A DNA stretch of 64,000 bases from Arthrobacter sp. PAMC 25486 (GTDB lineage: Bacteria; Actinomycetota; Actinomycetes; Actinomycetales; Micrococcaceae), in NCBI RefSeq assembly GCF_000785535.1, contig NZ_CP007595.1, positions 4,114,439 to 4,178,438 on the forward strand, in the 5' to 3' direction. Under the pieces are notes generated by a model. The model was not told the origin of the DNA and ran no database searches. It worked only from the letters and a program-made list of their open reading frames with translations. The position numbers and the translations under genes were made by a program. Shown here piece after piece: positions 17,861 to 22,241 of the stretch (positions are counted from its first letter, which is position 1; every line of letters begins with the position of its first letter).

Positions 17861-20224
<2,364 letters not shown>

Positions 20225-20241
<17 letters not shown>

Positions 20242-20278
20242 AAAGTAAAAGTTTGCACTATTTCTGCCGGAGTGCAAA
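20225..20278. promoter_or_regulatory. Candidate TetR operator, TTTGCACT sites
   Basis: TTTGCACT at 20252-20259 and AGTGCAAA at 20271-20278 form an inverted pair separated by 11 bases, right upstream of the repressor start. A third copy, TTTGCACT at 20225-20232, lies inside the first codons, 27 bases from the second in direct orientation. Binding by the adjacent TetR protein is inferred. Confidence 0.65.
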
Positions 20279-20330
20279 ATTATGTGGAGGTGGTCTTCCT
20301 CACACGCGCTGTGGTGCTGCACAAGCCGGT

Positions 20331-20434
20331 GCGGGGGTAGTTGTTACCATTCGCACCTACAACGGCAAGCGCGGGGGTAGTTGTTACCCTTCGCACCCGG
20401 TAGACCGTGGGCGATTGGTAACAACTACCCCCGC
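20331..20434. repeat. Three copies of the 18-mer GCGGGGGTAGTTGTTACC
   Basis: Exact copies lie at 20331-20348 and 20371-20388 on the + strand, and at 20417-20434 inverted. The first two also share TTCGCACC after the 18-mer, and the inverted copy has a similar extension, giving a unit of about 27 bp. Copies two and three could pair into a hairpin. They lie in the gene-free stretch between tetR and fumC. Confidence 0.9.
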
Positions 20435-20442
20435 GACCTTAA

Positions 20443-20500
20443 AGTACGACGGCGGGAGGCCGCCTTTTTGTCAAAAAAGGTGTCCTCCCGCCGTCGTACT
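20443..20500. terminator. 58-bp palindromic hairpin with inner T/A stem
   Basis: AGTACGACGGCGGGAGG at 20443-20459 pairs perfectly with 20484-20500. Inside, CCTTTTT and AAAAAAGG extend the stem to a very short loop. It shares the GTACGACGGCGG core with the hairpin at 17795. No gene abuts it closely, so its role as a terminator (probably for leftward fumC read-through) is inferred. Confidence 0.6.
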
Positions 20501-20520
20501 GTGGCAGAAGCTCCGCGAGG

Positions 20521-20736
20521 CGTGAGATAAGGCGACTAATGCGTATCCGGTTTGCTCAGGTTGGGTCAGCGGCAGCCGTCAAGCGAGCTCGAATCAGTCT
20601 TATTCGTCGCAGAACCCATTCTGGCGCTCCTGAAACGTCCATGGTTGGCGCAACTTCGGATGGACATCCAGTCAACCTGAGCTAACCGGATACGCACTAG
20701 GCGACTTTCAACCCTCGAAAGTCGCCTTAGCTCACG
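20521..20736. other. 20-bp-arm hairpin split by an insertion
   Basis: If 20537-20705 is removed, CGTGAGATAAGGCGACTTTC (20521-20536 joined to 20706-20709) pairs with 20717-20736 at 19 of 20 positions. This reconstructs an ordinary hairpin downstream of the leftward fumC gene, probably its original terminator. The insertion falls after GGCGAC in the left arm. The right flank to 20810 has no gene. Confidence 0.75.
20537..20699. mobile_element. 163-bp MITE-like element with 27-bp terminal inverted repeats
   Basis: The left end reads TAATGCGTATCCGGTT and the inverted right end TAGTGCGTATCCGGTT. The two ends match at 25 of 27 positions, through GCTCAGGTTG. GGCGAC flanks both ends (20531-20536 and 20700-20705) as a six-base target duplication, and removing the element plus one copy restores a hairpin. 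There is no coding capacity, so it would need a transposase in trans. The parental IS family is not identified. Confidence 0.85.
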
Positions 20737-20810
20737 GTTCGCTGCCGCTCACTGCTCGCAAGCTCGCAGCGGGACCCTCGGCAGCGCTCTTATCCGGACG
20801 CGGCCGCAGG

Positions 20811-22241
20811 TTATTTCGGGGCGCGGGTCATCGCGAGCACGTCGAGCCCGGAATCCAGCTGCTCCAACGTGATTTCGCCGCGGTCCACGAAGCCCAGGGC
20901 CAGCACGGCTTCACGGATGGTCAGGCCCTCGGCGATGGCGTGCTTGGCGATCTTGGAGCCGTTTTCGTAGCCGATGTACTTGTTCAGCGGCGTCACGATC
21001 GACGGTGAGGCCTCGGCCAGGAAGCGGGCGCGCTCGACGTTGGCGGTGAGGCCGTCGATCATCTTGTCGGCCATGACGCGGCTCGTGTTGGTGAGCAGGC
21101 GGATGGACTGCAGCAGGTTCGAGGCCATGACCGGGATGCCCACGTTCAGCTCGAACGCGCCGTTCGTGGAGGACAGTGCGATCGTGGTGTCGTTGCCGAT
21201 GACCTGGGCGGCCACCATGATGGCTGCCTCGGCGATGACCGGGTTGACCTTGCCGGGCATGATCGAGGAGCCGGGCTGCAGGTCGGGGATGTTGATCTCG
21301 CCCAGGCCGGTGTTGGGGCCGGAGCCCAACCAGCGCAGGTCGTTGTTGATCTTCATGATCGAGTACGCGATGGTGCGCAGCTGGCCGGAGGCTTCGATGA
21401 GGCCGTCGCGGTTGGCCTGGGCCTCGAAGTGGTTGCGGGCTTCGGTCAGCGGCAGGCCGGTGTCCTGGGCGAGCAGGGCGATGACGCGCTGCGGGAAGCC
21501 GGCCGGGGTGTTGATGCCGGTGCCGACGGCGGTGCCGCCCAGGGGGACCTCTGCCACGCGGGCAATGGAAGATTCGACGCGCTCGATGCCGTAGCGGATC
21601 TGCGCAGCGTAGCCACCAAATTCCTGGCCGAGCGTGACGGGGGTGGCATCCATCAAGTGGGTGCGCCCGGACTTCACCACGGTGGCGAACTCGGCTTCCT
21701 TGCGCTCCAGCGACTCGGCCAGGTAGGCCAGTGCCGGGATCAGGTCATTGATCAGGGCGGAGGTGGCTGCCACGTGGACCGAGGTGGGGAACACGTCGTT
21801 GGAGGACTGCGAGGCGTTGACGTGGTCGTTCGGGTGGACCACCTTCTCCGAGCCGGCAGCAACGAGCGCGCGGTTGGCCAGGGTTGCCAGGACCTCGTTC
21901 ATGTTCATGTTCGAGGAGGTTCCGGAACCGGTCTGGAACACGTCGATGGGGAAGTCGCCGTCGAACCGGCCGGAAGCCACGAGATCGGCTGCACCCTCGA
22001 TGGCGCGGGCCAACTCGGCGTCGAGCACACCCAATTCGGCGTTGGTGGTGGCGGCAGCCTTCTTGATGCGCGCCAGTGCGCCAATGTGGGCCGACTCCAG
22101 TGTCATGCCCGAAATCGGGAAGTTCTCGACGGCGCGCTGGGTCTGGGCGCTGTACAAGGCGTTGACCGGAACCCGGACCTCGCCCATCGTGTCATGTTCA
22201 ATACGGAATTCTTGTGCGGTGCCCGCGGCAGTATCAGTCAT
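20811..22241 (-). CDS. fumC: Fumarate hydratase class II
   Basis: This 476-residue enzyme interconverts fumarate and malate in the TCA cycle as a cytoplasmic homotetramer. The superfamily signature [12 protein letters not shown] is at about residues 322-333, and other family blocks include [32 protein letters not shown] and the [12 protein letters not shown] loop. Length and motifs are normal for class II enzymes. It follows the carbonic anhydrase gene in the same direction but behind two hairpins, so it probably has its own promoter between 22242 and 22274. Its downstream terminator appears to be the one broken by the MITE-like insertion. Confidence 0.97.

Follow-up and report, generated by a model that had tools for sequence, protein, structure and literature searches.

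The window, that is, the whole stretch of 64,000 nucleotides that was analysed, contains a short element in the region behind fumC. The fumC gene is on the minus strand and points at two hairpins, one of which is interrupted by the element. The next gene in the fumC direction encodes a TetR-type regulator (frame 19570-20322). The features are as follows.

20443 to 20500, strand not assigned: second, uninterrupted hairpin downstream of fumC
20521 to 20537, plus strand: left-arm bases of the interrupted hairpin that precede the element
20530 to 20537, plus strand: left copy of the 8-bp target duplication AGGCGACT
20538 to 20698, strand not assigned: 161-bp non-autonomous element (MITE), recognised by its ends, the duplication and an identical second copy
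20538 to 20563, plus strand: left terminal inverted repeat, 26 bp, matching the right end at 24/26 and the ends of the resident IS at 23/26 and 22/26
20567 to 20644, minus strand: stretch that aligns colinearly with the 5' region of an IS1595 transposase gene; directly weak, seen through the Arthrobacter bambusae relative
20673 to 20698, minus strand: right terminal inverted repeat, 26 bp, matching the ends of the resident IS1595-family IS at 25/26 and 24/26
20699 to 20706, plus strand: right copy of the 8-bp target duplication AGGCGACT
20699 to 20736, plus strand: remainder of the hairpin, with the duplicated and remaining left-arm bases, the loop and the whole right arm
20811 to 22241, minus strand: fumC, fumarase class II (Pfam Lyase_1 and FumaraseC_C)

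The element spans 161 bp and has the end bases AATGCG...CGCACT. Its ends are inverted repeats that are complementary at 24 of 26 positions; with 63,791 positions of the window examined in all, the best of the other 161-bp segments reached 18 of 26. The 8-bp sequence AGGCGACT flanks the element on both sides. The sequence-only reading had proposed a MITE-like insertion with a target duplication, and the inverted ends, the duplication and an identical second copy in the genome bear this out. Its measurements were slightly off. The length of 163 bp included one flanking base per side, the inverted repeats given as 25/27 are real and match at 24/26, and GGCGAC, taken as the duplication, is the inner six of the eight duplicated bases. 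No gene is recognisable inside the element, as had been supposed: the longest ATG frame has 48 codons and belongs to no Pfam family.

We searched the genome, a single contig of 4,593,579 bases, and found two full copies of the element only. The second copy is at an unrelated site on the other strand, at G000:C1 3711949-3712109, and is identical to the first in every letter over 161 bp. It is flanked by its own 8-bp duplication, GACGACGT. This copy interrupts a small cupin-type gene. Once its two flanks are joined, the frame of that gene continues uninterrupted through to the protein's end. A DNA search of 23 genus genomes gave no match spanning an empty second site. The matches, in 13 of the 23, were to a separate 79-bp repeat, to the element ends and, once, to a flank (G004:C52, 74% identity, covering part of the gene). 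Therefore, protein homologues were used to examine the junction. The front portion of the gene has matches in 17 of 100 family genomes (our own included). Five homologous loci taken from these, with 60 to 68% identity, align across the joined junction without a gap. The name cupin rests on one of these homologues, which Pfam assigns to Cupin_2; in the interrupted gene itself, the 60-aa front fragment had no Pfam match. Judged from these alignments, the interrupted gene gives further, independent evidence of insertion. The 79-bp repeat (L010 850-929) lies near the second copy and recurs in several genus genomes.

The earlier suggestion that the element depends on a transposase elsewhere led to a fitting candidate in the same genome. 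A full-length IS of 1,024 bp is present at G000:C1 262586-263609, flanked by the 8-bp duplication ACGGGTGT. Its own two ends are identical over 18 of 18 positions, and they match the element ends at 22 to 25 of 26 positions, depending on the end. The 322-aa transposase contains DDE_Tnp_IS1595 (PF12762, 1.2e-31) and Zn_ribbon_IS1595 (PF12760, 3e-13), both above the cut-offs, and matches NCBIfam transpos_IS1595 (NF033547) with 199 bits against a cut-off of 75. The family itself was reportedly defined by Siguier in 2009. In the plasmid collection, the best match had 64% identity (Rhodococcus sp. DMU1, annotated as IS1595 family transposase), and among solved structures there was no match for the transposase at an E value of 0.001. 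A one-ended relic begins at position 564526 of the genome. The resident IS is thus like the element in its ends, its 8-bp duplication and its target motif (see below), and differs from it in being 1,024 bp long with a transposase gene. We consider it the probable source of transposase, going by these sequence matches. However, the transposase has extra HCHCHC residues next to its zinc ribbon, contributed by a 6-bp tandem repeat (L009 1870-1900). This expansion is in frame and is absent from the three relatives whose motif was read, so the activity of the resident transposase is not assured.

These observations bear on whether the element is mobile DNA at all or a dispersed functional repeat, such as a REP-like sequence or a regulatory hairpin, that looks like a MITE merely through its complementary ends. 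The fumC-sense strand does have a strong predicted fold (-74.6 kcal/mol), and two other dispersed repeats adjoin the element. However, both copies carry 8-bp duplications, a full-length IS has nearly identical ends, and the second copy was inserted into a gene, with full copies numbering only two. A functional repeat is therefore hardly credible. We are highly confident that this is a non-autonomous miniature element of the IS1595 family, presumably mobilised in trans, and inserted at a symmetric target in an arm of the fumC hairpin.

The surroundings contain further repeats. A REP-like dispersed repeat with the core CTCACTGCTCGCAAGCTCGCAGCGGGACCCTC occupies 20731-20798 and has matches at many places in the genus genomes; at locus L058 it likewise precedes a hairpin. 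Copies of the motif TTTGCACT are located at 20222-20290, at the start of the TetR-type frame. A related string, TAGTGCAAACTT, is found no more than 450 nt behind fumC in 16 of the 23 loci examined; our own locus is among the 23, with its copy further off. The TTTGCACT and TAGTGCAAACTT motifs are a putative conserved operator or promoter.

The earlier call for a search for further copies of the ends was answered in the relatives as well as in the own genome. In a search of 395 family genomes (own included) that scored two candidates per genome, nine had any match to the element, mostly to its ends only; among the genus genomes, the number was 5 of 23. Scanning a collection of species genomes for the end pattern gave nine stretches from six organisms. 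Five of these are Arthrobacter wenxiniae, Arthrobacter sp. B2a2-09, Specibacter cremeus, Arthrobacter bambusae and Arthrobacter sp. H35-D1, and the sixth source is one contig filed as Planctomycetota. The plasmid collection had no match to the element, and the viral contigs had none to the end pattern. A 22-bp match to the interior in locus L033 was taken as chance, because the sequence there contains no element ends.

One relative of the element is in A. bambusae DP-A9 (L031/L090), where one copy was found. It is 161 bp long with the duplication AGGTCCAT, and it is like our element in length, ends, 8-bp duplication and a colinear interior, although that interior has diverged. Aligned with each other, the two elements score 48, and the best of 1000 dinucleotide shuffles scores 38. 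The A. bambusae interior is colinear with the 5' region of the transposase gene: for four of five IS, none of 1000 such shuffles did as well, and for the fifth, 15 did. Compared directly with the same five IS, the interior of our element gives weak alignments (39, 13, 60, 98 and 196 of 1000 shuffles were as good), colinear in three of the five. Therefore, the resident IS is not the near parent of the element. An origin by internal deletion is nevertheless well supported for the MITE lineage by these alignments, and it would by extension apply to this very copy. In this scenario, an internal deletion would have removed the bulk of the transposase gene from an ancestral IS of this group and spared its two ends together with roughly 100 bp from the 5' part of the gene.

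Elements with like ends occur in two other sources. In S. cremeus C1-50, a related miniature element is present in four incomplete copies (L013, L017, L020 and L027). They share the ends with our element and match it over 74 bp at 91% identity in two copies and over 64 bp at 89% in a third. However, they are broken by N in the draft, and at the other end the interior is dissimilar. The contig filed as Planctomycetota carries an element of 395 bp (L091 4602-4996) with similar ends, a 109-aa frame and a duplication matching at 7 of 8 positions. By eye, this frame resembles the front of an IS1595 transposase, and the element is perhaps a product of the same kind of shortening.

We then considered the interrupted hairpin. 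Without the element and one copy of the duplication, the flanks give a hairpin whose arms pair at 18 of 19 positions around a loop of 7 (-28.7 kcal/mol); counting the next pair outwards as well gives 19/20, as the sequence-only reading had claimed. Among 20,000 random deletions of similar size in the window, placed without regard to flanking repeats, the best hairpin spanning the junction had 17 of 19 pairs and arose once. The uninterrupted hairpin was absent from the fumC loci of 22 relatives; two of these loci stop 60 and 66 bases past fumC, and a third has 100 N. Searching 85 loci with the hairpin sequence gave no match in 78, and the seven that matched are overlapping loci of our own genome. 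Other strong hairpins are present behind fumC in many relatives, which fits some role of hairpins there. The second hairpin of our locus, at 20443-20500, resembles many places in the genome (36 matches, many counted on both strands), and similar hairpins with GACGGCGGGAGG arms are found behind fumC in several relatives.

Because of its position, the interrupted hairpin may once have been a terminator, and the insertion may have inactivated it, raising read-through from fumC into the downstream TetR-type gene. The outer nine arm positions, eight of them paired, are indeed now separated from the inner stem. However, the duplication rebuilds on the fumC side a perfect 11-bp stem with a 7-base loop (20699-20727, -18.4 kcal/mol). 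It is followed by the stronger hairpin at 20443-20500 (-44.2 kcal/mol), which is uninterrupted. Moreover, between 20150 and 20850 the fumC strand yielded no T-tailed terminator; the sole T-tailed site in this interval is on the opposite strand, and that number is what chance predicts (1 found, 1.0 expected). The hairpin does not combine a GC-rich stem with a T tract on the fumC strand, as an intrinsic terminator would. Actinobacterial terminators often have no T tract. Rfam gave nothing at the gathering score in 20150-20850. The damage to the fumC terminator suggested earlier is thus unsupported, and we regard increased read-through as unlikely; the supposed effect on fumC expression is unproven.

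The position of the element in a hairpin arm also raises the question of target choice. We aligned ten insertion sites chosen for having two ends and a duplication: two of this element, one of the A. bambusae element and seven of IS-sized elements (including L088, whose transposase was checked), with three of the ten from this genome. L063 was kept despite worn ends and a 7/8 duplication. Left out were the one-ended or gapped loci L011, L013, L016, L017, L020, L027, L032, L066, L077, L081 and L084, locus L064 (its two flanks do not match), locus L070 (its ends belong to another sequence group), and other transposase loci without found ends and duplication. The 8-bp duplication is exact at nine of the ten sites and 7/8 at one, in line with the value of 8 given in PMC3852290 and PMC12561309.

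The consensus of the ten sites is ATAA-N6-TTAT. With the first duplicated base as +1, the left half has A at -3 (8/10), T at -2 (10/10), A at -1 (8/10) and A at +1 (8/10). The right half has T at +8 (9/10), T at +9 (9/10), A at +10 (6/10, with T in 4/10) and T at +11 (9/10). The sites match the motif at 6.7 of 8 positions on average, compared with 1.54 for 31,198 flanking 20-mers. When each site was scored with itself left out, all ten were within the top 0.3% of these background 20-mers. The arm of the fumC hairpin contains GATAA-GGCGAC-TTTC, which matches 6 of the 8 motif positions, and the landing site is therefore explained without a preference for terminators.

A transposase that favours hairpins or terminators as such, and that picked the fumC hairpin for its structure, would account for the location in a hairpin arm. 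It would also suit the IS copy in L062 (around 1464 and 2470), which lies at the centre of a palindrome, ACACCATAA-N6-TTATGGTGT, where 8 of 8 further outer pairs are complementary. However, when L091 (duplication 7/8) was added for this count only, making 11 sites, the other ten had 0 to 4 of 8 outer pairs, around a background mean of 2.1. In addition, the second copy sits within a gene, and the common denominator of the sites is the short symmetric motif. We find a preference for structure quite improbable; from these sequences, the symmetric motif appears to explain the landing site better.

Together, these data suggest how the element came to lie behind fumC. The full-length IS, one copy of which is in the genome, would supply a transposase that recognises the element ends in trans. 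This transposase would insert the element with an 8-bp duplication at the symmetric target ATAA-N6-TTAT, and such a target in the left arm of the hairpin would have received it. Mobilisation in trans is what the identical copies and the full-length IS point to, and the element may have moved recently.

A MITE of the IS1595 family is already in print. According to PMC3852290, the ISHwa6-related MITE of Haloquadratum walsbyi is 165 bp long, occurs in 7 copies, and has inverted repeats of 25 and a duplication of 8. It is like our element in family, in length and in the size of its repeats and duplication, and differs in its archaeal host and in its copy number there; the likeness is one of description. 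ISApl4, another member of the IS1595 family, shares the 8-bp duplications, but these are described as A/T-rich, and it has 14-bp ends of another sequence and its own transposase (PMC12561309). A literature search on miniature inverted repeats and Arthrobacter gave a single paper, on natural transformation, and a limited literature search found no report of the ATAA-N6-TTAT motif for the IS1595 family.

The present element therefore adds an actinobacterial member to a published kind of IS1595-type MITE, of which it is a clear if unremarkable example. The case is clean in that a single genome holds the element, a second copy, a full-length partner, the duplications and two host sequences that were interrupted. 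We give about even weight to a broader proposal: this IS1595 subgroup would have a true symmetric target, (G/C)ATAA-N6-TTAT(G/C), that is read on either side of the cut by a symmetric transposase complex. The MITE lineage would have been kept mobile by it across Arthrobacter-like genera, with the interior drifting and the ends fixed. Among the by-products of the analysis, the symmetric target motif is the most useful, since it predicts insertion sites of this IS group.
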